DNA of 64,000 nt from NCBI GenBank assembly GCA_951799425.1, contig OX637395.1, positions 43,260,173-43,324,172 of the forward strand, given 5' to 3'. The stretch is from Ilex aquifolium. Lineage: Eukaryota > Streptophyta > Magnoliopsida > Aquifoliales > Aquifoliaceae. The notes beneath the pieces were generated by a model. That model made no database searches. It was not told where the DNA came from and worked only from the letters and a program-made list of their open reading frames with translations. The translations under genes were made by a program, and so were the position numbers. Shown one piece after another: positions 5,789 to 60,500 of the stretch (positions within the stretch are counted from its first letter, which is position 1; the number at the start of each line of letters is the position of its first letter).

Positions 5789-6451
5789 ATAAAGTAGCTT
5801 ACAATTTAAATATCAAAAGATAAATAAAATGACTTGTTATTCGCGGTTAAGATCACTTTAAATTTTACTTTAAAGTTAATCTAACGGCTAATATTAACAC
5901 CTTAAATTTAATAGAAAAAATAGACCCCTAAAGATGTGTTTGAAGTGACTTTTTAAAAGTACTTTTAGAAATTATTTCTCATAAATATTTAAAAAAAAAA
6001 ATAGTGTTTGAAACTGCCCCACCACTACCTCTGTCGCCACCGCCACCACTACCACCGCCACCACCGTCGTAGCCGCCACCACCACCACCACTGCCACCAT
6101 CCCCCCCTCCACCACCACCACCGTCCCCACCACCGCCGTTGCCGCCACTACCGCCGCCACCATCGCTGTCGCCTCCACCACTGCCACCACCACCATTGTC
6201 GTCACCACCACCACCACCACTGCCATCGCCTCCATCGCCGCCACCACCACGGTCATTGCCACCCACCACAAACATCACCGTCTCCTACCATCACCACTGC
6301 CGCCCACCATCTCTCACCCCACTACAAACCGATGCTTAAATTCTTTTATCTCTTCTCTATGTTTGTGATTTAATTTTAGATATGAATACAAATATATTTA
6401 TTGTTTACTATTTTTTATTACTCTGTGTTTTCAGACACAGACAATAACTAG
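5789..6451 (+). mobile_element. Helitron-like non-autonomous element, copy 1
   Basis: The 3' end has the Helitron layout: a hairpin CTGTGTTT-TC-AGACACAG, a short spacer, then CTAG followed by T. The 5' border is blurred by a TA run but resumes with TATAATAAAGTAGC, like the 5' end of copy 2. An AT-rich block at 5800-6005 is followed by a CCA/CCG-rich tract to about 6310. There is no Rep/helicase coding. Copy 2 starts at the very next base. Confidence 0.55.
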
Positions 6452-8275
6452 TCTATAATAAAGTATAATACAATTAAAATCTCAAAAGATAAAAAAAATG
6501 ATTTTTCCTATTCGCAGTTGAGCTTTAAATTTTATTTTAAAGTTAATCTAACGGTTAATATTAACACTTGAAATTTAATATGAAAAATAGGCCTCTACGG
6601 GTGTATTTGAGGTTACTTTTTAAAAGTAATTCAAGGACTTATAATTTCTTATAACTACTTTAAACAAAAAAGTAATGTTTGGAATTGTCCCACCCCTACC
6701 CCCACCGCCCCACCACCACCACTACCATCACCCCCTCCACCGCCCCACAACCACCCCCACCGCCATCACCACTACTATCATAACTACCCCCACCCCACCA
6801 TCACCACCACCACCGTCGACGACGCCACCACCACCACCACTATCACCACCACCGTTGCCGCCACTCTACTACCACTACCATTACCACCGCCCCGCCACCA
6901 CCACTATCTCCACCCCACCACCACCATTGTCACCTCCCCACCACCACCATCCCTACTGTTGCCACCCCACCACCATCCCTACTACCACCACCCTCACCAC
7001 TACCGTTGTTGTTCCACCATCACCCTTACCACCACCAACCTCATCGCCCTACGACTATCACCACTACCGCCGTCGCTACCCCCACTACCCCACTGCCACC
7101 ACCACCACCATCACCGCCACCACCTACCATCATCATCATCATCTCATTCTTATATTTATTACAACTACCACTATCATCTCACGACTATCGTTGCCATCCA
7201 CCACCACCATATTGTTGCCCACCACCACCCGTCTGAAAAAAGATAAACAAAATAACTTTTGTTTTTCGCGGTTAAGATCTCTTTAAATTTTACTTTAAAA
7301 TTAATTCGACGACTAATATTAACACTCTAAATTTAATAGAAAAAATAGACCTCTAAGAGTGTGTTTGGTGTAACTTTTTAAAAGTGATTTAAGGACTGAT
7401 AACTTTTTATAACTACTTTAAACAAAAAAAGTAATATTTGGAACCGTCCCACCACTGCTACCACCATTGCCCCACCCCCACCCCCACCGCCATCACCGCT
7501 ACCATCATCGCTACCACCACAACTACCTCCACCACCACCACCTCTGTCACAATAACCACCATCACCACCGTCGACGTCACCCCCACCACCACCATCACTA
7601 CCGCCACCTTACTACCACCACCACCATCCTTACTATTGCCACCCCACCACCATCCCTACTACTGTCACCCCACCACCATCCCGACTGCCACCACTCTCAC
7701 CACCACAGTTGTTGTCCCACCATCACCCTTACCACCCCCACCGCTCCCATGACCATCACCATTACCACCACCATCGGCGCTACCCCCCACCACTATCCCA
7801 CCGCCACCACCCACTACTATCGTCATCTTATTCTTATATTTATTACCGCTATCACTATCATCTCATGACTATTGTTGACACCCACCACCACCATATTGTA
7901 GCCCACTACCACCCGTCGTCAACAACCACTATCACCCATTCTCACCACACCTACCACTACCACCCTTCACCACTCATCACTGCCGCTATCTACTGTCACT
8001 CACCCCTACCACATCTACTACCACCGTCATTCGCCACTACCTATCATACTATCACCCAGAAGCATCCGTCGTCACCCACCACCGTCGTCGCCCCACCACC
8101 ACGACTGGCAACAACCATTACCATTGCCCACCACCACCACCGTCGTCACCCATGGCTGTCACTACTACCATCATCGTTGCCAACCACAACTACCACCACC
8201 ACGGTCATTATCACCCACCACAACCATCACCGTCTCCTACCACCACCACTGCCGCCCACCACTTTTCACCTCCAC
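6019..8275. repeat. CCA/CCG/CAT trinucleotide-rich tracts (three blocks)
   Basis: Blocks at about 6019-6310, 6690-7225 and 7450-8275 consist of diverged CCACCA/CCACCG/CCATCA units, strongly C-rich on + and G-rich on -. They are separated by copies of one AT-rich module. All six frames give simple His/Pro/Thr or Gly/Val/Asp-rich peptides, so no gene is called. Confidence 0.85.
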
Positions 8276-8403
8276 TATAATCGATTATTAAATTCATTTA
8301 TCTCTCCTCTATGTTTGTGATTTGATTTTGGATATGAATACAAATATGTTTATTGTTTACCATTTTTTATTACTCTGTGTCTTTAGGCACAGGTAATAAC
8401 TAG
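6452..8403 (+). mobile_element. Helitron-like non-autonomous element, copy 2, with internal duplication
   Basis: It begins TCTATAATAAAG directly after the CTAG of copy 1 and ends with the hairpin CTGTGTC-TTTA-GGCACAG, a spacer and CTAG before T. The head-to-tail junction with no intervening base is typical of rolling-circle elements. The AT-rich 5' block (about 6470-6690) recurs at about 7240-7440, so the interior holds a second partial unit. Most of the remainder is CCA/CCG/CCT-type trinucleotide sequence. Open frames here (His-, Pro- and Thr-rich) are repeat artefacts. Confidence 0.6.
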
Positions 8404-9287
8404 TATATATATATATTTTTTTACATAAGGTTTTCAATTCTCAACCCAACACAATACCGCCCCCTCCTTCGCACCATCTGTTCCCCTTCACAGACAATAT
8501 ATCCCAGTGACTAGCTCAGGGTTGTTCGGCCTCTCACTCCTTGCCAAACCCCCTCTCTTCTTTTTGTTTTTCACTCTACTCCTAGTGTTTCAATGTTTCT
8601 TTATCAGTTCTACTACTCACCATTACTCTATTTTTTGCTTTGTCTATGTTTTTATACGGCCTTAATTTCTGTCTCTTGCTCCTCTCTTCTGCTCCATTCC
8701 TCTGCCTTTGTTCTCTTGCTCTCATTTCTACTCTCTGAACCTTCCTCTGTTCATAATGTACAAAATATAGTAGCGTTGGGGTTAGTTCATGGGGTTGTTT
8801 TCTTCATCTTTCTCAAGAAAGTCAGCGGCACTGAGCAAAACTTCGTGGGCAATTAGATCCCTAATATTTCGATTTTTAATCCAACATGCATTTGCTTGAA
8901 TTGAAGACGACAAACTAGGGCTTGAAGAACACGATTCCATTCAAGTAAATTTGATTTTTAGTTGTTTTGTTCTTGAATTAATTGGATTATTACTAATATT
9001 GAGATGAAATTGAATGGGATTTTGTTAGAATTGAGTGTTTTGGGGTTTAATTAGGATGAAAATTAGTGTGTTGGTGAAACTGTTGATTATTTTTTGAAAT
9101 TTTGTTCTAATTTATTTGATTCGGATCAGAATATCGAACTTGGTATCCGACTCTTAATGGAAACGGATTTGGATTAAGATTTTCATATCCATCGAATATA
9201 CGGATAAGATTTGAACTAGAATTTTTTAATTAAATTCGGACCGACTAAGATCTGATCTGATCTGAATGCGATCTGTTGACAGGCCTA
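8404..9287. other. Right part of the hAT-like element, no gene
   Basis: An 87-residue open frame at 8593-8856 is hydrophobic and Leu/Ser/Phe-rich, from a CT-rich sequence. I do not recognise it and think it non-coding. The 9110-9287 stretch is the GATCTGAT-rich subterminal region of the surrounding element. Confidence 0.4.
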
Positions 9288-14793: not shown

Positions 14794-15567
14794 GAGTCAT
14801 TAGGGGAAGAGAGTGTTTGGGAGGGAAATGGGCTGGTGACAACTGTCATCATGTGGGCACTCTCTCTCCTTCCTTACTACTGTGTTTTTTTCTGTTTCTT
14901 TGTGAAAAACTAGGAATCGCCTTTACTAGTGCACAGGTAAATATGAATATGACATGATGAAGGACCTCATTCATTCTTCTCTAAAAGATTGAGATTGACC
15001 CACCCTTGTGTTCTTACCTGCTATAACTATTCCTTATTTTTTTACTACCACATGCCACTAACTTTTCTTTGGATTTAATTAGCACTTTTTATTTTCATGT
15101 TTCGCTCTGCTGCAGTTGTCTAAAATGGCCGCACAAAATCCCACAATGGAATGATGGAAGCTATTCATTCATGTTGTTTGATGCAGCAAAAAACCATTCT
15201 AAATAGAAAGGCTTAGGAAAATATTATTCATTCCTAATTTGATTTATTTATAATTGTTGGATTAAAAATTGACTCTATTTAATATTAAAATCATAACTGA
15301 GTCCAATGACTCCAAATTCAATGGTACAAAAAAAAAAAGACTAATGAATCCCTTCTTCCTCTATAGAAGATGAAAAAGGCTTTCCCAGTACCAGCAATCA
15401 AATCATAAAAAAATAAAAATGTCCCAATTGGAAAACAATAATATTACAATTTTCGTGTAGGTCATAAACAATCATACCTTTACAGAGAAGATCTCTATTA
15501 GAGAATACCATGTCCCTGAAATCCCAAGAAACAAACCTAAGAGAATTAAGCCCACATCAGGAAACAC
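14794..15567. other. Intergenic between two - strand genes
   Basis: Upstream flank of the EXO-like pseudogene and 3' flank of the AVT3-like gene. AT-rich with short A runs. No element or RNA gene was recognised. Confidence 0.4.
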
Positions 15568-16777
15568 TCATTTCCAGCCCATTTTTTCCTTAAAGACTTT
15601 ATAATGAAACAAAGCAGGCAAAACAAAGCCCAACACATAGCAAGTGTTGCTCCCCACTAATGACAAGAAATCAGCAAAATTTGGGACCAATAGAGCCACC
15701 AAACTCACTACCAAAACCAGCAACCATCTCATCCACAAGCAGTAACTTCTTTCCCACAATCTGCTTTCAAACACCCCATAAACTGGATTCATCATCAATG
15801 GGAATGTGAAAAACAGATAGATGCAAAGGCCCAGTTGAACTAAAGTGCTCAATAATCCTTGTCCCAAGTTGCTCGTGATTATATCCTTTGTGTTCTCACC
15901 AAAAGCAAAGTAACCAAAAGCTCTGAATGATCCGTACATCAAATCAATGAACAACATGGTCAAGCCCAATATTTTCCCAAACTTGCTCTTATCTTTCATC
16001 TCCGATTCCAAGAGCAAAACCATTCCAATTCCCTCAAATGAGTAAACAACCACACCCAATCCATAGAAGAACATGGATAGACTCCCAAAAGCCTCAGCAA
16101 CCGGTCTATGCTTGGTGAAAATCAACACATCCCCAACCAATACCACGCCCATTGCACCAAGGTCAACGATATCAGCAAAAATACTTAAGAGGAGCCAAAA
16201 GGGTCAGTGAAGAGATCGAATTTAACCCCACTTGGAAGGGAAAACAACTCCAGATGTACAAAATTTTGGCCGAAATTCCCCAAATCTTAGGGTGGACTAA
16301 ATTGAAATTGAGATAGGCGGCGAGCGTTGAAGATGAACTGAATAGATTGGCCAATGTGTTACCAATGAATATGAGATAGCCCACGCAGAACCCAGCTTGA
16401 GAGAGGACGACCATGGCGTCGACGGCGAATCGACCAACAGGCCAACAGACATCGAAGCCGAGGTCGCCGAAAGAGGCGATGTTGTCGGAACCGAAGGGGG
16501 ATTCGAGTTTTTTTCGGGTGTGGATGAGAAGCATCATGTAGTGGTAGGTCAGGGCAGCGACAACGAAGATCATAATGAGGCTGGTGAGCCACCCGATCCT
16601 TATGAAGGTGAAAGGGAGGCCCAATACGCCCGCAGCGACAATGGAGATGAAAACATTAGCGAAAGTCTTGGGTTGAGAGGAGAGATGCTTTGATTTGCCC
16701 ATGTGAGGTGTGTCTTCTCTTGGGAGAGGGCGGAAGAGGCCATTGGAGTACGAATTCGCTTCTTTGTCGAACCCCAT
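15568..16777 (-). pseudogene. AVT3-type amino-acid transporter (AAAP family) with one frameshift
   Basis: AVT3 proteins are 11-helix vacuolar amino-acid exporters of the amino-acid/auxin permease family, about 400-430 residues and intronless. The first frame (16777 to 16172) starts MGFDKEANSYSNG and contains SSQPKTFANVFISIVAAGVLGLPFTF and FAVDAMVVLSQAGFCVGYLI. At about 16184-16189 an extra base turns the expected PLSIFADIVDLGAMGVV into KYFC-stop. The second frame resumes exactly there and runs to TGA at 15570-15568: FFYGLGVVVYSFEGIGMVL, YGSFRAFGYFAFGE, LFFTFPLMMNPVYGVFE. Nothing else looks damaged, so a single assembly error would restore it. Otherwise it is a young pseudogene. Identity is strong; functional status is open. 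Confidence 0.85.
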
Positions 16778-17230
16778 TATAATGATCTCTCAACGTAATT
16801 TGGGAAGAGGTTCAGGCTACATATATAAATAAATAATTGGCGATAAGTTATGTATAAGTAAGGGGAGAGAGAGTATCTGAAATTATTGTTGATGCTTGGA
16901 GATCATGAAATGGGAATATGATATGCTGAGAGAGGAAGTAGTCGAGAGAGATGCGATAGTTCCTGTTCGGATAATTTGAGAGAGAAAGTTGGTGAGTTCT
17001 ATCTATCTTTAGCAAAGGATAAGAGATCAGTTTTGAATACGTCATGGTTGTTGAGTTCAGTCAGGACACGTACGGAATTGGGGTTGGGGTGATAAATAAA
17101 AAAATTCTAAATCTTAAATTTCATCTTCAACTCTATCTGTAATGGAGAGCGGACTCCATGGATTGAACGTTTTTCTTTCTCCTACTATTTGGGGTGGTTT
17201 CTTTTTGTTAAGAAATGATGAGATACTCTA
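16778..17230. other. 5' flank of the AVT3-like gene
   Basis: Contains GAGAGA-rich patches (16860-17000), common in plant 5' UTRs and promoters on the - strand. No clear TATA box or element was assigned. Confidence 0.35.
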
Positions 17231-17234
17231 ATCC

Positions 17235-17545
17235 ATGCTTTTATCCTAACTCATGTTTTTTTTTTTAAACTTATACCCAAAAGAGAGCCGTTTTCAAACT
17301 ATTTTTCAAACCCAGACATTTTTAAAAACGTTAGTTGGAATAACGTTTTTATACCAAAAAGACGTCATTTGGATTAACGTTTTTCTAAAAACGTCACTTC
17401 AACAAATGTTTTAGGAAAATTTTTATTTTTAAAAAAAAATCACATAAATGTTGGTCTGACCAACGTCTTTTTAAAAAAGTTGCTTTTAGCTTCTTAAAAA
17501 CGTTGGTTTAACCAACATTTTTATGCTTATTTTTTATATAATTAG
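17235..17545 (+). repeat. Long inverted repeat, left arm (partner at 26050-26305)
   Basis: The segment containing CTTATACCCAAAAG, CAAACTATTTTTCAAA and repeated AACGTT/AACGTCATT words reappears in reverse orientation at 26050-26305. The arms are about 250-300 bp and diverged. The layout fits a long-TIR element of Mutator type about 9 kb across that holds all the insertions between, or two related elements in opposite orientation. No clean target duplication was found. Confidence 0.55.
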
Positions 17546-17614
17546 GGAGAATTAGACTCTGACCTCCTGAGGTTTATCACTTAATCACTCAGACTCCTTG
17601 GCATTTGAAATATT

Positions 17615-17755
17615 ACATAGACCCTCTAAGGTTTGTACGCGCGTAACATTTAGACCCCTGCTGTAAATATATCCGTTAATAAATTATACGTAGACCCCCT
17701 GAAATTTGTACGCATATAATACTTAAATCTCTTAAGTTTAAAATGTTATACTTAG
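17615..17755 (+). repeat. Direct repeat, left copy (partner at 24505-24640)
   Basis: ACATAGACCCTCTAAGG through TTAAGTTTAAAAT..ACTTAG occurs again at 24505-24640 with a modest number of substitutions. The uninterrupted family arrangement is visible at 26575-26790. The repeat therefore looks like a duplication created around the sequence lying between the copies. Confidence 0.75.
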
Positions 17756-18286
17756 ATTTGAAATAATACCCAAGGTAAAAAAAAAAAGTAATAATAATAA
17801 AAGTGAATAAGTTAGATTTGAGAAATTTTAAACTTTTGTTTGACTTGGGTTCTATCCTTATGGGCTTATGGATATGATTTGGAAATCAATGGAGATAATT
17901 TAATTATTTGGTGTAGGGGAAATATCAGATAATTATAGAAGTTTAGTCGGATAGAGTTTTAAAATTGTAGAATTGGTTGAACACTAATTCCTTATTACTA
18001 AAGAGACTTTAGTGTTATTAAAAATAGTTGACTGCTATACCTTATATGTAATTGAACGGCTACCCTAGGTTGTCTTGCCTCATATTTTATTAATATTGTT
18101 TGGGCTGGAAGGAATAGAATAGGAGGTGGCAGAGAGAGAGAAAGAGAGAGAGAGAAGGAAGAAAGAAAGAAGAACGAGAAAAAAGAGGGATTGGACCCAT
18201 TGAAGGTATGAATTCATTAATTATTTGATGGATTTTGTAATTTATTCAATTACATAGTATTAGATTTATCATAAATCGTGATAATG

Positions 18287-18294
<8 letters not shown>

Positions 18295-18330
<36 letters not shown>

Positions 18331-18340
18331 GATATATATC

Positions 18341-18376
<36 letters not shown>

Positions 18377-18380
18377 TTCA
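18295..18380. repeat. (CA)n-(TG)n palindrome with AT core
   Basis: TGAACACACAC... runs into CACATATAGATATATATCTATATGTG and out through a TG array ending GTTTGTTCA. The whole ~86 bp folds on itself almost perfectly. It ends ten bases before a 206-bp duplicated segment starts. Confidence 0.92.
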
Positions 18381-18390
18381 TGGTAAAGAG

Positions 18391-18596
18391 TATTGATGAA
18401 TATGTAAATGAGTTTTATTGAAAGTTGCTAAGTTAAGTGTTTTTTGACCTAATTTAGATTAGTTGGTATTGAAGTTTTTAAAGAATTTAATCAATGTGTC
18501 AAACTGGAAAAAAAAAAAAAAAAAGAAGAGAAAAACAAGGAAGGAAAAAGAAAGAAAGTTGGGCTCTGCAACTTCCGTAAGGTTGAAGAAGATGGG
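18391..18596 (+). repeat. Direct repeat flanking the 4.1-kb insertion, left copy
   Basis: TATTGATGAATATGTAAATG through GGTTGAAGAAGATGGG is repeated at 22688-22884 with only a few substitutions and a shorter A run. Comparison with the LTR copy at 9294-11424 shows that the right copy is continuous with the rest of the LTR, so the left copy is the extra one. Confidence 0.92.
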
Positions 18597-18883
18597 GGTG
18601 CAGATCGTCTGCGGTTGGAAGAAACCGCATGACATACGGTTTAATGAAACGCCGGCGTTTCATTTGGTTTTTCAAATTTTTTTTTAATTTCCCCCTTACC
18701 AAAACGACGTCGTTTTGGACCTTTTAAAAACCAGATTCAGTCCCCTCCATTTTCTTTCTCCCGCTTGTTCTTCATCGGCCTGGTTCTCCCGCTTGTTCTT
18801 CATCCGGACTGGTTCTCCTGCTTCTTCATAGCTCAAACTTCTCCATCTTCTTCTTCGGCTGGTCTGGTTCTCCAGCTCAAGCT

Positions 18884-19198
18884 TTGAGCACTTGTCCGGT
18901 TCTCATTACCCTTTCTCTTACATTTCTGGTATGGATGGAGCCATTGTTTAACTTGTTTCAGAATATCTTGAATCATAATATTGTTATGACCCAAGATTCA
19001 GTTGATCAACTTGTCTATAGAGCTTGCGAATCCACAGACTACTTTTCTAATTTTTTGAAGTTTGGGAACTATTTATTATGCTTAGTCAACAAATGTGCTC
19101 CTTTATTGAAGTCTCACAAGCTTTTATTGACTGAAGCTGTTGAGCATACTACTACTTTTGTGACCAAATCCATCCTATCAAAACTGGCTAGCTTGTGA
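18884..19198 (+). CDS. Unidentified open frame, possible captured gene fragment
   Basis: A 104-residue frame with a complex, non-repetitive composition: QDSVDQLVYRACESTDYFSN, LKFGNYLLCLVNKCAPLLKS, then LLTEAVEHTTTFVTKSILSK. It looks like helical coding sequence, but I do not recognise the family. The start is arbitrary, because the upstream 18740-18880 region is CT-rich and promoter- or leader-like, with a repeated 'cccgcttgttcttcat'. It could be the 5' end of the FAR1-like gene transcript or a separate captured fragment. Confidence 0.35.
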   Translation: MSTCPVLITLSLTFLVWMEPLFNLFQNILNHNIVMTQDSVDQLVYRACESTDYFSNFLKFGNYLLCLVNKCAPLLKSHKLLLTEAVEHTTTFVTKSILSKLASL

Positions 19199-19619
19199 AT
19201 GCTTATATTATTGTCTATGGAAGGTTTTCCTTGCTGCGGGCTTCAGCTACTTTTAGACAGTTTAGAAATTTTGAATAACTTGGGTGTCGGTTCAAAACTC
19301 TTTCTGATCTTACCTAGCTAGGACCATCTATAGGAATGTTGTTTCTCTGGTTTTGTTGCAGGAAACTACTTTTTTATTTCTCAGTTTTGATCCACAGAGT
19401 TGTCTCATTTTTCATAAACTTGAAATGATAGTTTCCATTGTGCATTGTAAATAATGATTATGTTGTGATGTTTTCACCCAAATCCTTGCCATTGAATGTT
19501 GTAAAGAGCTAAAATCTCTCTTATTGTTGTATCTAAATGTTGCATTGGATGCCCTAATTTTATAACAAACTAGTGTTTTTTTACAAAAATTATGTGTATT
19601 AATCTTATTGTAGGATACT

Positions 19620-20177
19620 ATGATGGATGATTTGGGAGTTAATGCGACTGATAATATACCTCATATTGGTATGCATTTTGATACGGAGGAAGATGCTTAT
19701 GTGTTTTACAATAGTTATGGAGGTGGTTTAAAAAGAAAAGAAGGTGGTTACAAGGGTTGGGGTCGACTAAAATCTTGGCATGAGAAAGCAACAAAGAGAA
19801 AAAAAGGAGCTTCCCAACCATCACATATGTCTATGGTATCGTATAAATATAATTGTAGATTTTTTTAATTCACTTCATATTTTTATTCACTTCCTATTTT
19901 TATAAACATAATTGTAAGTATTTTTGTATTTCAGGTACAAGGTTTCAGTCACCCGTGTACATCAGCATATGGTCATTCGATGTCTTCTCAAACTTCAAAT
20001 AGTGTACAAAGTGTTATGGTATGTGACCTTATTGTTAAATTTATTGATTCACATATTTATCAAGTTTCTTTGTCTGACCCCTTCTCATTAATGTAGGGTA
20101 CTCCGACTGATTCAACATATGTGCATTCTTTAAATGACGCTGAATCATTTTTCGTGAATGGGAGATACAACTTGTAA
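19620..20177 (+). CDS. Shortened FAR1-related protein
   Basis: Three exons in phase (19620-19835, 19935-20018, 20097-20177) with GT-AG introns give 126 residues. The N-terminal IPHIGMHFDTEEDAYVFYNS is the opening of the FAR1 DNA-binding domain found in FHY3/FAR1 proteins, which descend from Mutator-like transposases. The domain breaks off after NSYG and passes directly into a KRKEGGYKGWGR..KKGASQPSHM tail and a Ser/Thr-rich C-terminus. The zinc-ligand region, transposase core and SWIM finger of full FAR1 proteins (about 700-850 aa) are absent. Earlier exons may exist, since 19616 follows a good acceptor. It is probably a deletion derivative carried by the 4.1-kb insertion. Confidence 0.6.
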
Positions 20178-20287
20178 TGATGGTTGGAGAATTAGCAGTT
20201 ATGTGGATGCAGATGGAGACTTCTCATTTTGTTGAAAACTTTTTATTTTTAATGAGACTACTAGCTGTTGTAAGGATTCTTGTTGTA

Positions 20288-20440
20288 TTTTTAATGAATC
20301 TGATCTTTTTTTAATGAATGTGGTCTTTTTAATGAATGTGATCTTCTTAATGAATGTGATATTTTTAATGAATGAGATCTTCTTTAATGAATGTGATCTT
20401 CTTCCCATCTGTGATCTTTTTTGATGAATATGATCTTCCA
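20288..20440. repeat. 18-bp minisatellite (TTTTTAATGAATGTGATC type)
   Basis: About eight imperfect tandem units of TTAATGAATGTGATCTTC lie between the convergent FAR1-like and GRF-finger genes. The open frame of repeated Phe-Ile-Lys-Lys on - is an artefact. Confidence 0.85.
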
Positions 20441-20529
20441 AGTCACAACAATATACAAAACACATAATTTCATTCAAATTAAACGCACAAGTTCATTTAT
20501 AATACAAGTTTCATCGCTACACCATTGCT

Positions 20530-20889
20530 CTACTTCACTACAATCACAAATATAAGCATCACCACTACAAAAGTGACTACAAACATATTTGACTTCATTG
20601 AACCTTCTTTAGCCACAACACGTTGAACTACATTACAAAGTTCTTCAATTCGTCGTACATTGTCTTCAATTCGTCGTACATCCATCCTCTCATTTGTAAT
20701 TTTCGAAGAGGGGAGAGGAGTCATCCACTTAAAAAAGTGATGGGAATCGTCTTGACATTTGCAGTATAGCTTCCCAGGATTTTTTTCAGATTCGGACACT
20801 TTGATAATCGCTCTTTCTCTACAAACAAGGCAATGCATATTGCGAAATCTTAACTCGTCGTTGCTTGTTGCCGTGCTTGAAGATGCCAT
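20530..20889 (-). CDS. GRF-type zinc-finger protein with C-terminal membrane segment
   Basis: Single exon, 119 residues. CLVCRERAIIKVSESEKNPGKLYCKC..HHFFKWM (residues about 20-56) matches the plant GRF zinc finger: paired Cys, the NPGK/R turn, an aromatic-Cys pair and a closing FFKW. The fourth metal ligand is replaced by the DDSHH segment, so His may substitute. A short coiled coil (VRRIEDNVRRIEELCNVVQR) follows. The end, MFVVTFVVVMLIFVIVVK, is a tail-anchor-like hydrophobic helix. Small GRF-finger genes of this design are common and often repeat-associated in plants; GRF fingers bind nucleic acid. It is convergent with the FAR1-like gene and inside the same insertion. Confidence 0.65.
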   Translation of the reverse strand: MASSSTATSNDELRFRNMHCLVCRERAIIKVSESEKNPGKLYCKCQDDSHHFFKWMTPLPSSKITNERMDVRRIEDNVRRIEELCNVVQRVVAKEGSMKSNMFVVTFVVVMLIFVIVVK

Positions 20890-20949
20890 TTTTCAACACT
20901 ACAACCATGAAAGGACAATGGTATTAAAACTCAACATTATAGCATAATG

Positions 20950-21070
20950 ATATTAAGCACACATAGCAGCAAACATAGCAGCACACATAGCAGCAACCTT
21001 GATGAGGCTGTAGCAAACATTGCAGCACACATAGCAGCAAAACAGCAGCCAGTAAACATTGCAGCACAAC
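20950..21070. repeat. AGCAGCACACATAGCAGCAA-type imperfect repeats
   Basis: Diverged tandem units of ACATAGCAGCA and ACATTGCAGCA upstream of the GRF-finger gene (read on -). Confidence 0.75.
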
Positions 21071-22385
21071 AGCAACACAGAAACAAGTTCTCTTTGAAAA
21101 TTGTTTAACTTTTTCATCCTAAGTTTTCTAATAACAAGTGTACAGGACCCAATGAAGCAAAGTTTTAGTATTCACTAACATAATTTTCTCCCTTGCTTAA
21201 AAGTTACAAACAGTCAAGTCATTCAATGATTTCAATATCAAAGGATGCAAAGGATTCAAAGGATGCTTGCAAAGGATTCAAAGCTCTTTCTAAATTATAA
21301 CTCTTTCTAATTTATATGTAGTATGCAAAGGATTCAAAGCTTCATTTAACTTTTTCTCAGTATGCATTAACCAACAATTCTAAAGCATATCCAGCATGAA
21401 TTGCCCTCTTTTTATCCATCTTTTGGAAACAATCAGAAGCTTCGCCAAGAGCTCTGACAATTACAAGCAGGCAACAATTCTGTTGCCCAAGTGTAGATGG
21501 GGCAAACCCAATGACTTAGTCTCAACTTTCAGTGTTGAATCTTTGTTTGGGTCAGGTCCATCTACTCAAATGTGAATGTTCTCCTTTGTTGGTTGTGTTG
21601 TCTAGCATACTCTGCACTCTGGACTGTTGGTGTATGTGATTACCTGTTTTCATTTCATTTTGCTTATATACAAGCACAGCAACGTGAAAATAAGAAAAGA
21701 CAACAACATAACATATTTTTTGTTTAGTTTTCTCATGTTAGACCAGAAGAATAAAGTTGGATAGCATGTCACAATGCAGGATTATAAAGTTTAATGCTTT
21801 AGTCACAAGCTTTAGTCACAATGCAAGAAAATCAAAGAAGTCACAATGCAGGATTCTAAAGTCAAGCTTTAGTCCAAGCTCTGAATCATGTTAAGCAGTA
21901 AAACCAATTGAATGATCTCCATAGAAGTTTAAAATTAAAAAAGCACAGAGTAACCCATAATTGATAATCTAACAATCAAACGCTTCAAAAAAATAATTAA
22001 TTTTCTGAGATGGTTTACAAGAATGGGATTCATACCCATAAACGTAAACAACACAGTACAAATTATGTACAATGATTCTATATGAGACTCAAGCATCTCA
22101 TAAATCCTATACATAAAGCCTATACATAAAGCCCATCCTTTCTGGCATTTTCTCAAACAGGTGGAGGGTGGGGAGGTGTGTGTGAGAGATTTGCTTGAAG
22201 GAGAAAGAGGGAGCCAATTTTAACATCAAATGGTCATGGAATTAAACCAACGTTTCAACATCAAATGCTCAATGAAAGGTTCTATCGAAAAAACATACCA
22301 GCTAATAATCACCTACATACTAGCCTTAACGAATAATTGAGTTTGATGCTGAAATTGATGACAAATCATACCAACCATAACGAAT

Positions 22386-22490
22386 AATTGAGCCGCCTGA
22401 AGTCGGAGCCACCTGAAGTCGGAGCGGCCTGAAGTCGGAGCCACCTGTAGTCGGAGCCACCTAAAGTCGGAGCTGCTTGAAGTCGTCGGA
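22386..22490. repeat. 18-bp minisatellite (GAAGTCGGAGCCACCT type)
   Basis: Five to six units of GGAGCCACCTGAAGTC with point changes near the right end of the 4.1-kb insertion. The WLRLQVAPTSG-like open frames on - come from this array. Confidence 0.85.
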
Positions 22491-22687
22491 GTTGCCTGAT
22501 GTCGCAAAGGCTCTGCTGTTGCAAAGGCTCTGTTGTTGAATAAGAGGGGCACAATGGTTGTTCAAGGCTGGAATTTGCCCTACTAAAACGACGTCGTTTT
22601 AGTAAGGGCTGTTAAAAAAAAAATTGCAAAAAGCACCGTAAAACGGTGCCGTTCCACTTAACCGCATAGCAAGCGGTTACCTCCTTA

Positions 22688-22884
22688 TATTGATGAATAT
22701 GTAAATGAGTTTTATTGAAAGTTGCCAAGTTAAGTGTTTTTTGACCTAATTTAGATTGGTTGGTATTGAAATTTTTAAAAAATTTAATCAATGTGTCAAA
22801 CTGGAAAAAAAAAAAGAGAAAAACAAGGAAGGAAAAAGAAAGAAAGTTGGGCTCTGCAACTTCCGTAAGGTTGAAGAAGATGGG
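22688..22884 (+). repeat. Direct repeat flanking the 4.1-kb insertion, right copy
   Basis: Partner of 18391-18596. It is continuous with the LTR-like sequence that follows (TATTCTGGAATTATGG onward), which matches the antisense copy near 10980-11060. Confidence 0.92.
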
Positions 22885-23643
22885 TATTCTGGAATTATGG
22901 AAAGCTCCCTTTTAGTTTCAAAGAGTTTTACTTTGACCTCTATATTCTTCTAAACGTAATTTTAATCACTGTTCTACTTGGGAAGTTGGAAGAATAGAAT
23001 TTTGGAAAATTTATGGCAGCCTCGAAAACAAAAAATTCTTTTTTCAAAGAAATTACACTTTGACCCCAAAAGTTTCAAAAATTATGAATTGACCCCAAAA
23101 TTTTAGATTTTTTTTTCTAAACAGCCCAACATACTTCTATACCCTATTACCTAGTATTAGAAAATGATATTTATATATAAATGATATATTAAGTATATAT
23201 AAATGGGTAGGAAGTACGTAAAATAAATATAGAATCGCGGAATGACAAAGTTAGAAATACGAATTGATCGCTATATGTTATTTTGGATTAGGTGGTGATT
23301 GCATTGAGGTTGAGAAAAAGGGTTTTGAATTAGATTTTGGGAATCAATGTGAGTAGTTTACTACTTCTTTTGGGAGGATTTTCTATATTAAATGTGTGGG
23401 TGCGTGCGTGTGGATTTTTCATATATATGATATATGTGTTGATGTTTGGGGTTGCAAGTAAATGTTTTGAATTGTAGACTGTTATACATGTGAATTTTGG
23501 AAAACTTGTGGGATGATTTTATATCATTGCTTTGGTGATGAAAGAGAAATTTTGTGTGCGTTGGGACTAAAACTACAATTTTGGTGTGTGTGAAAATCAT
23601 GTTTATGAGACGGGGACTGGGATTACCAGGTTTAAGTGATAAC

Positions 23644-23815
23644 AAGAGACCGGGCCAGTCATCAGACTAGTGATGACAAGAGACTGTGCTAGTTACCATG
23701 CTAGTGGTAACAAGAGACGGAGCCAGTCATCAGGCTAGTGATGACAAGAGACTGGACCAGTTACTAGGCTAGTGGTAACAAGAGACTGGACTAGTTACCA
23801 AGCTAGTGATAACAA
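23644..23815 (+). repeat. Tandem ~40-bp repeats in the LTR-like sequence
   Basis: Four to five alternating units of TGATGACAAGAGACT and GGTAACAAGAGACT, each followed by a CAGTTAC/CAGTCATC segment. The antisense LTR copy (about 9985-10110) has fewer units, so the array has changed length since the copies separated. Confidence 0.8.
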
Positions 23816-24504
23816 ACATGATTTGACAAATGTATTTGGAATTGAATATGTGTGTGAGTGTTTTGGGTTATGCATGTCTTTTCATTTATAAAGTATGTTG
23901 TGAAAATGAGTGGTGTTTGGGTTATAAATATCTTTTTATTTATAAAGTTATTTGTGATCATAAAATTATTTTGTTTTAATGATTATGTGGGAGAGGTTGT
24001 GGTACAATTTGTTGTACTTATGTGTGTATCAAAGTTTATTTTTGTATATAAATTCTGGGATTTATTTTCACACCTCATTAGAGGTGGTTGCTACTCATAG
24101 GCCATTGTGCTCATCCAAACATTTAAAAATTTCAGGTGAGGATTAGGGTGAGGAGTAAGTTCACAAATAGACAAAGGATTAGAGGAATCGAAGATTTATT
24201 TTATTGTAGGTCTTCAGGAGTAAAAGTCTTTTATAGTTTTGAGACAAATGTTTAATTGTTTTGAGAACAATATTGTTTATGTTTAGAGTAGTCAACCTTA
24301 TGGTTTAATTATTGTTTTACATGAGTTTAGTAATGATATTGGTGGTGTTTAGTATATTCCTCTGGTATTCATTAGGTCGGTGGAATTGATCACTTCATTA
24401 TTTGTCTTCCGTTGTATTTTGCATTTATTATGCACAAGGTTTGTTGGTTAAGGCCTCGGTGGCCGGTCTGCCGCCCACCCTATGTGATACGGGGTGGGGG
24501 TGTG

Positions 24505-24640
24505 ACATAGACCCTCTAAGGTTTGTACACGCGTAACACTTAGATCCCTACTGTAAATATATTCGTTAATGAATTATACCTAGACCCCCTAAAGTTTGTA
24601 TGCATATAATACTTAAATCTCTTAAGTTTAAAATACTTAG
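24505..24640 (+). repeat. Direct repeat, right copy (partner at 17615-17755)
   Basis: Begins with the ACA that also ends the LTR-like sequence and runs TAGACCCTCTAAGG to AAATACTTAG. Confidence 0.75.
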
Positions 24641-26049
24641 ACAAAAAATACTCCAATCAAAGATAGAATGTCAAATATTTTAAATTTTACAACCAAAATT
24701 AATGATATATTGTATCATTTATTGAAATAAAATCAAAAATAAAATATTTTTCCTTAACATTAAAACCGATATTTACAAACATAGTATTACAACAAACTAA
24801 TGCACCATACCTTTTACATTCTAGATAAAACAACAAAAGACTATATACAATTATGTTACTTATCATTTTGTACATTCAGACAACAACTCCTCTACATCAA
24901 ACTAAATCGCCCAGTGGACCACCTTCAACATCCCGTGAGTCCTGAAAACAAAGAATTGTAGAGGGGTGAGCAAAACCACACACTTAGTGAGTTTAAAACA
25001 CAATTTTCACATAATTCTTAAATTCAAATTCAAACATCATCATACAATACAACATCCTTCCGCACATTATTTTCTTTGAATGTTCACATCCTCCTCCACT
25101 TTTTTCCATTTTATTTCTAGTTCTCTCGACTCCAACAAAGTGTTATAGTTGATTACCATTACATGAAATTGTGAAGTACAATAAAAAATGGGGGTCAAAG
25201 TGTAATTATAGGAATCAATGGGAGAAAGAATGACAAAATAATAATTCTAATCAAACTTTAAATAATACAACTTAATGGCAATTTAACACCCATCCACTTT
25301 AAATAACAAAAATCAATTGTACAATACGTCTCATAAATATAAGATTTTCAAAAATACTTACATTAATATTTTATAGGGTCTAAATGTAAATATTCTATTA
25401 TATATAAAACTAAGAGAGTTTTTAGAATTTTGGGGGGTTTTCAGAATTTGGAGGTAATTATTCCATTTTTTCATCTTCGCTATAACAACTAGAAACATTT
25501 TCCATGTTTATAGCTTCTCAATGAAACACTCTGTTTGAAAGCTCAAATCTTTTAGATTTTTGACAGTTTCAGAGGAACAAAAAAAGGTCAAAATTCTGAA
25601 TTTGGGGGGGGGGGAGGGGGGGGGGGATTTAAGAATTGGGGGAGATGGGTTTCGGAATGGGGGGGAGGTTTCGGATGCTCTTACCAGATTTTGTTCGGAT
25701 GGTGGTGGTGTCGGGTATGGGGTTTCGGATGGTAGTGGTGTTGTGGTTGGGGGGTTTGGATGGTGGTGATGTTGGGGCTGTGGGATAGTGATGGTGGTGT
25801 TGTTGGTGATTTCAGATGGTGGTGGTGCTGGGGCTATGGCTAGTGATGGTGGTCTTGCTGGTAGTTTCGGATGGTGGTGGTGCAGGGACTATGGGATAGT
25901 GATGGTGGTGGTGCTGGGGCTGGGGGCTAGTGGTGGTCGTGTTGCTCATGGTTTTGTATGGAATAGGGGTCTGTAATTTCAAATGAGGAAGAGAATTTGG
26001 GGGGAATGACAAAATGAAGGCAGAATGGAAAGAAAAGAGAGAGGCTCAG
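24641..26049. other. Non-coding part of the long-inverted-repeat element
   Basis: AT-rich to about 25590, then a G run interrupted by one A (25603-25626) and a TGGTGGTG-rich tract to about 25930. The Gly/Val-rich open frames there are repeat artefacts. No gene was recognised. Confidence 0.5.
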
Positions 26050-26574: not shown

Positions 26575-27540
26575 GAAAAAATTACACCAGACCTCTTGAG
26601 ATTTGTCACTTAATCATCTAAACTCCTTGATATTTAAAATATTACAAACATACATATACTTGTGTAACACATAGTATATTCATTAATTAGTTACATCCAA
26701 ACTCTTGAAATTTTAAATGTATAATACTTAAACTATTCAAGTTTAAAATATTATATTTAGACAAAAAATACTTCAATTAAAGATAGAATATTAAATATTT
26801 TAAATTTTATAACTAAAATTCTTGTTCTATGATGTTATTTATTGAATGTTGATGCCAAAATTTGGATGACCTTCATGTCAGTTTAATAGACTTTGCTCAG
26901 CTGCAAAAGAAGTTGGAAACCGGAGGGGAGCTCCGGGGTCAACTCTCTGATGCCTAAGTCAGTAAGTGACTTAAAGGTAAAACTGTGTTTAGAAGTTACG
27001 AGTTACATACCTGGAGCATCTTGAACTAAATGAACTTTTCACTTTGGGTCAATATTTTCATTATCAAGTACGAACACATGAAATAAGTCTAATCAATATA
27101 TTTGTATGTTCCATTATATCATCTATTGACATAAATTTCAAACAAAATTCTAATTTTTTGAGAAAAAAAAATTGTAACTAGTATAAATGTATTAAAGAAC
27201 TCAAATCAACACTCATTTGCCTGCAATTATACTGCCTATTGGAATAAAACTAAAAAAAATCAAACAAGGGGTCAAATTGTAATAGACACAATATCTTTTA
27301 TTTTTAATTGGGGTAATTTGATCGTTTAATAGATTCCGTTAGTTTTGTAACTAATAAGGGGTTTAAGTGTAATATTTTAAATTTGAGAGGTCCAAGTATT
27401 ATACGTCTATAAACTTTAAGGGGTCTAGGTGTAATTTACTAATGAATATCGACAAGTGACTAAGTGTTACGTATGTATAAATCTTAAGGGGTCTATGCAT
27501 AATATTTTAAATATTTAGGGGTCTTAATATAAATAAATCT
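26575..27540. mobile_element. Palindromic 'drifted-date' repeat element (~1 kb)
   Basis: The left arm (26575-26800) reads ATTACACCAGACCTCTTGAGATTTGTCACTTAATC. The right arm (27300-27540), on the other strand, gives AAGACCCCTAAATATTTAAAATATTA and CTTAGTCACTTGTC, the same family in inverted order. Between the arms is AT-rich sequence with no transposase. It belongs to the same family as 17546-17755 and 24505-24640. Exact ends are not resolved. Confidence 0.5.
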
Positions 27541-27684: not shown

Positions 27685-28236
27685 GGGTTAATTGCACTAG
27701 ATGTCTCTAAATTATGGGGTTTGTCTCATTTTGGTCCCCAATATTTCAATTGCATGATTTTAGTCCCTTAAGTATTGAATATGTTTCTATGTAGTCTCTC
27801 AAGCAGACAGCGTCCATATTGTTAACAATTTTTTTATCATAAATTTGTCATGTGATACCTAAATATAGACAAAAAAATAATTTGGATAACTTTTGACTAA
27901 ATTTTTACCCAAAATTTGGTCAAATAGCTATTCAAATTACATAGTTTTAATCATGAATTATCCCAATTTTAGTCAATAACTACCCATATTACACATTTGT
28001 GGTCAAGAGCTACTCAAATTTTGGTCAAGAGCTACCCAAATTATATTTTTTGTATATATTTAAGTATCACGTGACAAGTTTATGATAAAAAATAGTCAGT
28101 AATCTGGACGCTGTCTGTTTAAGAGACTACATTTAAACATATTCAATACTTCAGAGACAAAAATGATGCAATTAAAATATTAAAAACTAAAATAAGACAA
28201 ACTTTATACTTTAGGAACCTCCAATACAATTAACCC
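27685..28236. mobile_element. Mutator-type long-TIR miniature element
   Basis: The ends are inverted over about 220 bp each: GGGTTAATTGCACTAGATG at the left, GGGTTAATTGTATTGGAGG read from the right. They contain matching blocks such as AAGTATTGAATATGTTT and CAGACAGCGTCCA. The flanking 9-mers TATATTTTA (27676-27684) and CATATTTTA (28237-28245) match at 8 of 9, as expected for Mutator-like insertion. There is no coding. Confidence 0.82.
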
Positions 28237-48500: not shown

Positions 48501-51500
48501 CTTGTACCAAATGCAAATGGAGGCCAATCTCCATTTCCATTTCGTACTCACCTTTGTTTCTTTGTTTTAGGTACGTGTTTCACATTATTTTTGGTGTTTA
48601 ATATGAGGTAGAACACATGTCTTTATTAGACCAATTCAATTGAAAAAGTAGTATTTTCGCACCAGTTCAATTTTTTCTGTTGCTTGGATAGTCTCAAATT
48701 TTGAATTGATAGTTCGAAATATTTGCAAACTACGGGGTCGTTTGGTAACGTTTTTGTTTTTGTGTCTTCAAAAAAATAAAAAACAGAGACAATTTTTGTC
48801 TTTGTTTTGTGGTAAACATTGAAACAGAAAACATGTTTGGAAGTCATTTGTGTCTATCAAATTATAAGAATAAAAACAAAAAACATGTTTGGCACCTACT
48901 TCAAGTTTTATCTTAAATATACTTTATAATATCTCATACAACAAAATATAAATCCAAAAATTCTTTAACCCAACATATCCACTAATTCAACAAACAACAA
49001 AGAATTACAAGAATTTTGGAACACCAAAAATACAATCCAAGGCTTCAATCCTTCAACAAAAAAACCAAAAAAAAATTTCATTACTTCCATGGCAGCAACC
49101 TTTCTCCCAGAATTCATCTCCTTGCAACCCAACCTCATTCACACCTTAGCATCCTCAGTCCAGCAGCATACTCCAACTCAGTCAACCATGATCAGATTTC
49201 AGCTTATGGAAATCAAATATGTAAATTCATACCCATAATTGCAAATGCATAGACATACCCAAAATAAATCCCAATTCAATCCCACCCCCAATTCTTTTTT
49301 TTGTTTTTTTGTACAAAACCCCCAATTCAATCCTAAAGTAAATGTCAATTCAATCACAATCTCAATCTCAATTCAATCACAAACACAACACACACACACA
49401 TAGAACACAACACACACACACCCAGCACACAGAACACACACACACACCCCAAGCACACAGAACACACACACATACAGCACATGGAACACACACGCAACAC
49501 ACAAAGATCTGTGTGTGTGTATATATATATATATTTTGTAAAATAAACCAATATCAAATTGAGAGTAAAATTGATCATTATAAAATATTTTGAACATTAA
49601 GATCAAATCCTTCTTAAATAACATTTTAAAATTAAATAATAAATAGAAGCCCCGGATCAATCTGAACATCAACCAATTTCATCCCCTCAATGCTCCAGTT
49701 CCAATGAGTATTACCCGCAAGCTTCAACTGGCAAGGCATATATACACACAGATCTGTGTGTATATATAGAGAGAGAGCGAGATGAGATGAGAGAGGGAGA
49801 AAGAGAGAGAGAGAGAGAGAAAGAAAAGGGGCTTACCTCTTCGTCGGTGAGAGAGAGGAGAGGAGATCGTTGCTCCTCGTCGTCGTCGTCGGTGATGGTG
49901 AGAAAATGGAGAGAGTGAGGCAACGATGGAGATGAGAGAGTAAGGCAGAGAAAATGAGGTGGGTTTAAATAGCTTCACGAAAAAAAGACTATTTTTGTTG
50001 CTAAGGAAGTTCGAAACCCGGATCTCTTTAATTCCCTTTAGCGCTTGTTTTTGTTTTGCTTGTTTTCTGGAACACAAATTTTTTGTTCCCATTTTTTTGT
50101 CTTTGTCTCCAAAACAACTAATATAAAACAAGAATAAAAATATTACCCAAACATATTCTTGTTTTCATTTTTGACAAAAATTGAAAACAAAAACACAAAA
50201 CACAAGACAAAAACAGTAAACAAACAGCCCCTACATCTCTATAATAACAGTTTTGTCCATAAAATCCCTTCGCAACTTAGACGTTTGTCAAGATTGCAAA
50301 CATTGATGTGGTTCAGAATTTTACTATGTCACTTTTGATTGAGGTTCCTTTATTGATCATTTTGTGTATTCAAGATATTAGACCATGGATTATATTTTGG
50401 AGCTCTGCTATTCCATTTGAGTTCATTAGAATTGAAAGCCACATGTATGGCTTAACATTGATTGGATCCTGCTACTTTCCTCTCAAATGTAATCATTGGG
50501 GCATGGACTTCAAACTACATTTATATACATATGGGATACAATTTGTAATTCTTACGTTAGTATCTTTATGATACATTATGCCAGTTACAGTGTCATGTAA
50601 CTATTGGTTGTAGTTTGGGCTAAAAGATGAAGTTTAGTCTACTTCGTACTCTGTTATTCCATTTGAGTTCATTAGAATTGAAAGTCACATGTATGGCTTA
50701 ACATTGATTGAATCTTGCTGCTTTCCTCTCAAATGTAATAATTGGGGCATGGACTTCAAAGTACATTTATATACATATGGTATACAATTTGTAATTCTTA
50801 CGTTAGTATCTTTATGATACATTGTGCCAAGTACAGTGTCATGTAACTATTAGTTGTAGTTTGGGCTAAAAGATGAAGTTTAGTCTACTTCGTACCCCAT
50901 TGCTTAAATCAAATATGCATGTAGGTTAGAATTGAAGCTCACTATTAGTTCCATATTATGGAATGATTATGCAACTCAAATGCCAAGAAAATTAAGTGGG
51001 AAGCTATCCGTTTGAGATGCTCTTTTTCATTTTTTTTTTTTAGCAATTTTTCCTGATCTTTTCTTTTCTTGTTTTTCCAGGAAAAAAGCTCTAATCGGGA
51101 TGTCTATAATTAGGTTTATATTCATATTTTCTTTCTTTTTTTTTTATTTCATTGCTTCCCACATTGTTTCTTAATTTTATAGAACATGCAAGCAGATTAG
51201 CCACTTGTTACAATTTATTTATTTGAATATTACAACTAGATCCTTGACTAAAACAATACATTTCCAAGCGTATTATCCACAGTTTGCTATGGAAACAATT
51301 TTTTTTTTTTTTTGTGAAAATTGGTCCTACACAATTATATACAATATTTTATTCTTAACACAGTCCACATGCAATGCTCGTGGACATTAACTAGTATAAC
51401 TAAATGCTAATTTGATAAAATTAAATATTAATTTTGTGTTGATTTAATGAGATGAAATACTACTTTAGTTTAAATTAAATAAAAGACATTAATTTGATAA

Positions 51501-57500: not shown

Positions 57501-60500
57501 TTTTCCAGTGATAGATGCAACTCAAATAATTATAGCACTTGACCATGTAGGATTAGGAGGATAGAGAACAACCTTGTCATTATCTAAATGATGATGCCTT
57601 CTAAAAGATTGCTGTAGGCATGTTGTTAATTAAAACATCTTCCCTTCAAATCAAAGGTTATAAAGCAAAAAGTATCCCAAGAAAATGTTGTTTCTTCTGA
57701 AGAAAGTGCAAGTTATTGTGAAAAATATTTGCTTGATGGTATGCCACATGGGATCAACACGCATGCCAGCTTGAAGAGGGTGTCTCTGGTGATTTTTCTA
57801 ATCTCCAAACCATGGGACATGGGGACATACATAGCCAAATTATCACCAAACCATGGGACATGGTTTGGTGATATTGTGAAAAATATTTGCTTGATGGTAC
57901 GCCACATGGGATCAACACGCATGCCAGCTTGAAGAGGGTGTCTCTGGTGATTTTTCTAATCTCCAAACCATGGGACATGGGGACATACATAGCCAAATTA
58001 TCACCATGGTTCTTGGACTGTGTACCCTATCATCAACTTGAGGAAAAAAAAAGTTCATAAGCAGGATGACCTCTTAGATATGGATCCTTAGACTCATTTT
58101 AGAAAATCCATGTGAATAGAGGAACAAATTCAGAAAGTCAGCCGGTAAACTAAATATATGTTTCTTTAATCATTCGCTCTTCCGAGGGTAAAAAGCATCA
58201 AACAGTAAATGTGCAAGACACCTACCTTATGTATCCAGAAAGTGTAGAACACCACATTAACCATGTCAGCACATATTGTAGCCTAAAAGTAAAGTGCAGA
58301 ACACCATATTGCCCATGCCGTGTCCGATTCTCCACACATATTTTTGGCAAAAAGTAAACTGACTAAAAACCACAACTTAATAGGATCCCCATGATTCCAT
58401 ACAAGGATTATATTCATAATAAACTTTTTAAGTAAAACAGCACAGTTTTTTCTCAAAACGACTAAATATGTAAATATTTGAGATTACCTGGAAAAAATTT
58501 GCCCTATGTTTTGCCATAAAAATAGAGGGTTCCAACAGTGCATAAAGCTTTTCATAAAAATTGGGATACTCTAGACCATGTTGCGTCATAAGAACATAGA
58601 GGCTGTTAAGTGCCATAACACTGATAACACCACCAAGGTCATACGATCGTGTCAAAAAGTCACTGCACAGTTATTTAAGCTCTAACATGATTAAAATTTG
58701 ACAAAATTAAGAAGTATCAAATCTTTAAGCAGGCAGCAGGTATTTCAATATGTGATTTACCATAACATAATGGGATTAGACAGATGAGGGATAACAGCCT
58801 GATGGAGAGTAACAAGAACCTAAGCATCAGAAGGCAATCAAGTCAGAAAACATAACAAACATAACACAGTTTACGCAATGACATGCAGCTAATGACAGAC
58901 AATGAGAATCTAAATATCTAACTTTGTCTGTCCTTGTTTTTAAATAAAAAAAAAAAGTAGCTATCCACAAAAAGAGATGATGATATAACTGCCCAAAAAT
59001 ATCAAGATTTCACAACCACTAAAACAATAGTCCAACACAATAAACAACAATTATACAAGCTATGACTGAACTGGTGGAGTCAGAATATTAGAATATGGCA
59101 CTACCCTAATTTTGGAACATTACTAGATGGTCCAATAAAGGGGTCTAGCCCTCTGCCATGCCATAACCATCCCCTCCTCCCAAAAAAAGGGAAGAATCAT
59201 GACAGCCTTGACTTTTGCACATGACAAAAAACAAGTATGGCACGGCAACCCCTACCGGAATTTTTATCTAACAGATCTTGTTTACCTTTTTTCACTGCCA
59301 AGTTTGGTAAAATCAGTCAAAGAAAATTAAAACAATAAAGAGACAAAGACAGAGATGGGGGCATCCGGCCAGCGACCAGCCATCCCTGCCTCCTTCCGCC
59401 TCAGGCAGCCTTCCCTGACCCCCCTTCCCCCTCTGCTCCTTTCCCCACCCCAAAACCCTTTCCTTGAAACCCCTCCCACCATTTCGCAGACCCCACCACC
59501 TGACAACCCCATCGAAACCCACCAACACGGTTACAACCCCGCTTCTGCCACTAACATCAATACAAACTCCCCATCTACTACCGAACAGGCGCACTCATGC
59601 TTCAAGTCACAAGGAACCCCAACAATTTAACCTAAAAAAAAACACCAAAACAACAAAACCTAGGGATCCAAGAGATTTGTCACAGCCATTTTACATTTAA
59701 TGGCTGCGCCAGATGAACATAAAAACCACACTATGTTAAACCTCATTAGAAAGTCATGCAACAACAAGTAAAACATGCAATTCATCAGGACAGTAAAGCC
59801 AAAGCACAAAAGGAAAAGAACAACCAAGTGTTGGAACATGCAAGGGTAAAGGGAGTTACTACGACCTCCACTTTGGTTGTAAATCGTAAAATACGCTCAA
59901 TTTTAAAGGATATAAAATTGAATATATCTATAAGTTTAATAACCAAGAATCAAGATTTCGTTTCAAAACGTCAGAAACGTTTCCGTTTTCAAGGAGACCA
60001 AAACAAATCAGTGATGGAATCGAAATTTTAATATTTCAATGTATTCTATAATAGTATAATGTTTCGAGATGTTTTATAATATTTCAATGCATTTGCACAA
60101 TTATTGCGGAATGTTTCAAGGTATTTTACGATATTTTGATATATTTCGACTAATGTTTTGCAAAAATAATTCTTAAATTTTATATTTTTTTCATTATATT
60201 TCCGAAACTGGTCGAAACGTTTCCGAAACACGTCGAAACGTTTCTATTTCCTAGATGACCGAAAGAAAATTTTGATCCTTGTTAATAACATATACTATCC
60301 AAAATTATATAAATAACATTTTAACTAACTAATCACTTCATGCAATGCATGTTTGCGAAAGAGATTGAAAGGGAGACATCATTTCATCTTCGCAACAGAG
60401 ATCGAAAAATAGTTAGGATTTTGTCCATTTGAAGAAGAACAAGAAGATTTGAGCAAAAAGAAGTGCGTCATTGCGGGCTTTGTCTGTTTAAGATCGAACC

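Follow-up and report, generated by a model that had tools for sequence, protein, structure and literature searches.

Long direct repeats around inserted DNA

Direct repeats much longer than ordinary target site duplications flank inserted DNA in plants and primates. In Arabidopsis, transposed genes are flanked by 30–287-bp direct repeats that recur at the target site in A. lyrata (Woodhouse et al. 2010, PMC2869330); among 18 transposed genes with repeats >30 bp, the A. lyrata target site holds the repeat sequence for 13, and integration of a circle by homology is the model preferred there. In primates, HERV-K (HML-2) insertions are reported with target duplications of 111 and 250 bp, for which rearrangement (‘pseudo-TSD’, for target site duplication) is also discussed (PMC5488345). 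Tandem duplications, enriched at 50–200 bp, are the commonest insertions in rice and are credited to the repair of adjacent nicks (PMC7971508; review PMC7407515), and in mouse embryonic stem cells overhang fill-in by Pol alpha-primase leads to tandem duplications (PMC8355091). In maize, reversed-ends transposition produces direct duplications whose junction holds a single Ac (PMC3744419). Here, these systems are compared with a transposon-like insert of about 4.1 kb in a long terminal repeat (LTR) of Ilex aquifolium, located in contig OX637395.1 (positions 43,260,173 to 43,324,172). This stretch of 64,000 nt, called the window and numbered from its first letter, has 36% G+C and no N, and its LTRs and genes, among them an amino-acid transporter gene, have the look of plant DNA.

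As with the Arabidopsis transposed genes, the Ilex insert is bordered by long direct repeats of a sequence present at the target site, but the Arabidopsis cases are mostly genes with gene-derived repeats (PMC2869330), whereas here a transposon-like unit lies in an LTR. The HERV-K (HML-2) cases likewise have mobile DNA between near-identical target copies of 111 or 250 bp, yet concern retroviral LTR elements in primates (PMC5488345). The rice patch-repair duplications are similar in size (near 50–200 bp) and come with a repair explanation, but their copies adjoin (PMC7971508), whereas a 4.1-kb unit separates the copies in Ilex. The maize duplications are also direct and have a single element where their copies meet, but they span 8,157 bp to ~5.3 Mb, involve a hAT element and need two nearby elements (PMC3744419). 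A preceding sequence-only reading of the window had limited known elements to duplications of 2–20 bp. This is too narrow, given the 30–287 bp of Arabidopsis (PMC2869330) and the 111 and 250 bp of HERV-K (PMC5488345).

An LTR segment doubled around a 4.1-kb insert

The elements of the duplication and its surroundings are as follows.
18284..18381, no strand: CA/TG palindrome just upstream of the segment (self-comparison, folding); a possible fragile site
18391..18596, plus strand: left copy of the duplicated LTR segment, 206 bp (self-comparison, alignment)
18597..22687, no strand: transposon-like insert, 4,091 bp (self-comparison, alignment, end alignment)
22688..22884, plus strand: right copy of the duplicated LTR segment, 197 bp (self-comparison, alignment)

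In the self-comparison of the window, the LTR segment at 18391–18596 (206 bp) is repeated at 22688–22884 (197 bp) with 93.7% identity over 206 columns and an E value of 1.66e-81. In the alignment, the two copies differ by four substitutions, all in the first half (about 2% divergence), and by one 9-bp gap in a poly-A run. Given this E value and so few differences, the repeat is not due to chance. Among direct repeats, it is the only one that abuts both borders of the insert. The sequence-only reading, which had placed an insert of ~4.1 kb at 18597–22687 between nearly identical direct copies of ~200 bp, is thereby confirmed, borders included. The opening TATT of the segment also stands directly after the segment; a match of at least four bases is found in 0.7% of random pairs.

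The nature of the doubled sequence is indicated by a second LTR of the same family, which runs on the minus strand from 9293 and is collinear with the last part of the right copy and with its downstream neighbour, through the right border. Past the right copy, GGTTAAAGAAGATGAAAATTCTG corresponds to GGTTGAAGAAGATGGGTATTCTG in the minus-strand LTR, and both LTRs of the window have the 3′ end GTGTGACA in common. The segment taken alone scores 38 against this other LTR (200 shuffles: mean 27.6, maximum 39.5) and is only marginally alignable, because its last part alone is clearly related. The earlier assignment of the duplicated sequence to an LTR is supported for the 3′ part, where the two LTRs end alike. 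No second segment copy is found in the minus-strand LTR, where the second-best score (24.5) lies below the shuffle mean of 27.6 and the 5′ part is too diverged for a test. A single ancestral segment, as patch duplication predicts, may be reflected in the one collinear copy of the other LTR, for the 3′ part; since the segment alone aligns so marginally, this claim depends on the last part of the segment and on one LTR. For the same 3′ part, this other LTR shows no native tandem of the segment, which the earlier reading had named as its refuting case. An LTR retrotransposon with 200-bp LTRs was considered for the locus and rejected: the repeats run TATTG...ATGGG and not TG...CA, and collinearity between the right copy and another LTR continues across the right border.

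The CA/TG palindrome reported upstream of the segment is present at 18284–18381, with a gap of 9 bases to the segment and not 10. The stretch 18282–18390 that contains it folds at z −9.01 relative to shuffles, and the palindrome could have been the fragile site of the proposed break.

Ends and contents of the insert

With its inverted ends, the insert resembles a transposon and is not anonymous filler. Its ends carry the following features.
18597..18616, plus strand: 20 bp between the left border and the left inverted repeat, containing a short fold-back; possibly junction filler or an extra end module
18617..18660, plus strand: core of the left terminal inverted repeat (32/44 match)
18702..18715, no strand: inner palindrome AAACGACGTCGTTT, left
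22586..22599, no strand: inner palindrome AAACGACGTCGTTT, right
22641..22684, minus strand: core of the right terminal inverted repeat (end alignment)

Aligned with the reverse complement of the last 200 bp, the first 200 bp of the insert score 106, whereas 1,000 dinucleotide shuffles average 27 and reach 49 at most; terminal inverted repeats, a trait of MULEs and Pack-MULEs, are thus present. Of 2,145 pairs of stretches compared inside the insert, none matches in inverted orientation as well as the two ends do (92), and the best pair located elsewhere reaches 51. The inverted repeats have an ungapped core of 44 bp with 32 matches; it is separated from the left border by 20 bp and from the right border by 3 bp. 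Both ends contain three palindromes, arranged in the same order. The first, AACCGC-N7-GCGGTT, has one mismatch on the left; with up to two mismatches, these two sites are the only ones in the window, and 2 of 100 shuffles reach two sites. The second reads AAACGCCGGCGTTT at the left end and AACGGTGCCGTT at the right end. The third and innermost, AAACGACGTCGTTT, has its only two exact occurrences of the window at the ends of the insert; with up to two mismatches there are four occurrences, one of them outside the insert at 17357, for an expectation of 0.05. As single-stranded DNA, both ends fold better than 200 of 200 shuffles (z −3.46 and −4.37). The inner palindrome with its flanks gave 0 matches in viral_contigs, and a literature search with its letters returned no paper. 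Helitrons end in the motif CTRR; the right end of the insert is CTCCTTA, and this class was rejected.

Three coding-like stretches lie inside the insert.
18902..19186, plus strand: fragment resembling the FANCE C terminus, with a score under the Pfam cut-off
19620..19835, plus strand: candidate start of a FAR1-type MULE protein, read by eye
20530..20892, minus strand: 120-aa open reading frame (ORF) that includes a GRF-zinc-ribbon-like stretch, with a score under the Pfam cut-off

The FANCE-like fragment has Pfam E values of 3.8e-4 and 2.2e-4 (20.5 and 21.2 bits for a cut-off of 22.2), and the GRF-zinc-ribbon-like stretch an E value of 2.2e-4 (21.7 bits for a cut-off of 25.9). The stretch 19620–19835 has no Pfam match, and we read it by eye as a putative FAR1/MULE remnant. 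No MULE transposase domain was matched by Pfam in the 6 + 3 stretches submitted, eight of which lie in or overlap the insert. Among the matches listed, FANCE is not mentioned in the transposon literature, nor ‘GRF zinc finger’ in that on FAR1/MULE. Rfam at gathering scores gave no match over 15000–26000, and ARAGORN none in the whole window.

Membership in the MULE superfamily was assessed with traits taken from PMC6446971 and PMC2528002, the former describing MULEs with 8–11-bp target duplications. Direct repeats of 8–11 bp with up to two mismatches number 23 near the inverted repeats, against a mean of 17.1, and 23% of 300 random placements reach 23. The best short pair, identical at 7 of 8 bases, is not adjacent to the inverted repeats, and no target site duplication of 8–11 bp adjoins them. 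The insert resembles Pack-MULEs and Jittery-type MULEs in its inverted ends, a candidate host gene-like fragment and a possible FAR1-like remnant, this last read by eye, but differs in that neither a transposase domain nor an 8–11-bp target duplication was detected. Its make-up suits a non-autonomous DNA transposon carrying gene fragments, of a superfamily that is not proven.

Origin of the duplication

The best explanation, to which we give an even chance, is a staggered break of ~200 nt, filled in on both sides and end-joined with the whole 4.1-kb element trapped in between. An old LTR would have been broken by nicks on opposite strands ~200 nt apart; fill-in of both ends would have doubled the 206-bp segment; and end joining would have trapped the DNA-transposon-like element, which may have arrived as an excised or copied molecule, between the filled ends. 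That the borders bear only the 206-bp repeat, and short target duplications not above chance, counts for such a break-and-fill event. The inverted repeats stand 20 bp and 3 bp from the borders, as junction filler or end processing could leave them, and natural element ends also fit. Because these distances are unequal and the left 20 bp contain a fold-back, end joining with filler suits the junctions better than clean transposition does.

Smaller analogues of the proposed event are present in the same window. At 50403–50894, 246 bp are tandemly duplicated with no spacer (234/246 identical), and at 57714–58006 a duplication of 135 bp (134/135 identical) encloses a 23-nt spacer that, judged by eye, could form a fold-back with the end of the first copy; this second duplication looks like a footprint of break repair. 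These two come from four other duplicate pairs inspected, those at 28468 and 56049 being left out as gapped or of low complexity, and they count for break-and-fill. So do the rice tandem duplications (PMC7971508; PMC7407515) and those made by Pol alpha-primase fill-in in mouse embryonic stem cells (PMC8355091).

Several observations weigh against this explanation. A random trapped piece should not start and stop at transposon ends, so that an excised or copied element is needed. The length of 206 bp is at the long end, the share of rice tandem duplications falling to 5% of events by 200 bp (PMC7971508). The TATT at the start of the segment and again after it is not asked for by a simple two-nick model, and the 246-bp and 135-bp duplications, unlike the segment, match at this place by one base only. 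Finally, the left 20 bp could be a normal part of the element. Of the two origins suggested in the sequence-only reading, break-and-fill is the better supported, and an unrecognised mechanism, though possible, is not required.

Other origins were weighed against the same evidence. It is possible, though doubtful, that the left end of one element copy and the right end of another, or of a sister-chromatid copy, were joined to target points 206 bp apart by alternative transposition or recombination. One element would then lie between two segment copies, with the reciprocal deletion on the other chromatid. Both element ends do lie at the junctions without a matching short duplication, as expected when the two halves part, and the maize reversed-ends events also leave one Ac at the junction of direct duplications; the maize duplications, however, start at 8,157 bp (PMC3744419). 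In addition, a second nearby end is needed, whereas the exact inner palindrome is found in the window only at the ends of this insert, and these ends are unequal. Homologous integration is improbable: a circle with the element and a related LTR piece would have recombined here and left the shared piece on both sides, as in the model published for the Arabidopsis transposed genes with direct repeats (PMC2869330). LTRs are repeated, which puts homology at hand, and a chimera could show the 2% difference between copies with 4/4 substitutions in the first half. Four substitutions are nevertheless too few for a pattern, and this model moves the joining of element and segment elsewhere. A tandem of the 206-bp segment may also have existed beforehand, with the element inserted exactly at its junction. 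Tandem duplications of similar size occur in the window and the segment start repeats the TATT that follows the segment, but an insertion point of ~1 in 206 and an insertion without target duplication, since none abuts the ends, make this quite improbable; the other LTR also has no second segment (24.5 against 27.6), although it is too diverged for a test of the 5′ part.

Still less credit is given to uncoupled strand transfer, in which a transposase would attach the ends of the element to target strands separated by ~200 nt and the stretch would be doubled by gap repair. It accounts for both element ends at the junctions and for a direct target duplication, and draws on a repeat of ~140 bp that flanks the whole LTR block (17618–17757 and 24508–24645; 124 identities, 11 mismatches and 8 gap positions; 92% over 130 bp in the self-comparison), so that more than one insertion at the locus carries such flanks. 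This repeat is ambiguous, either a second long target duplication or the result of an LTR-block insertion between units of a dispersed repeat, because the unit belongs to a dispersed repeat, with related stretches at 26580–26846 and, inverted, near 27362–27524, and because TAGAC is found both at the beginning of the unit and past its end. The 8–11-bp duplications described for MULEs (PMC6446971) and the failure to find a transposase domain in the insert also speak against uncoupled transfer. At a similarly low level of belief, one may imagine a plant transposon family with palindromic modular ends that joins target strands about one nucleosome repeat apart, for which duplications of 100–250 bp would be the normal signature and not a repair accident. 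Assemblies are known to double the flanks of large inserts in error. An artefact of this kind is very improbable here, given a window free of N, copies that differ by four substitutions and an indel, and insert borders that abut different target positions, unlike a falsely doubled flank.

Significance and neighbouring features

As it stands, the locus is one more example of a pattern known from Arabidopsis and primates. Its copies are only 2% diverged, and what this natural duplication of the break-repair type encloses is a whole-looking mobile unit and not random filler. A six-term literature search on transposon insertion and filler DNA returned no paper. Should ordinary short duplications flank other copies of the element, the locus would document how a transposon molecule was trapped at a break; long ones there would mean a new integration mode.

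Three further features of the window are recorded. An inverted repeat at 27685–28236, with arms of ~220 bp that are 81.5% alike (27685–27905 and 28236–28016), is MITE-like. A CCA-rich, minisatellite-like region with long open frames covers 6037–8413, and its strands are strongly asymmetric (GC skew of −0.65 over 6001–8000). Finally, an ORF for an amino-acid transporter (Aa_trans, E 4.9e-22) lies on the minus strand at 16172–16777 and adjoins the repeat-rich stretch.

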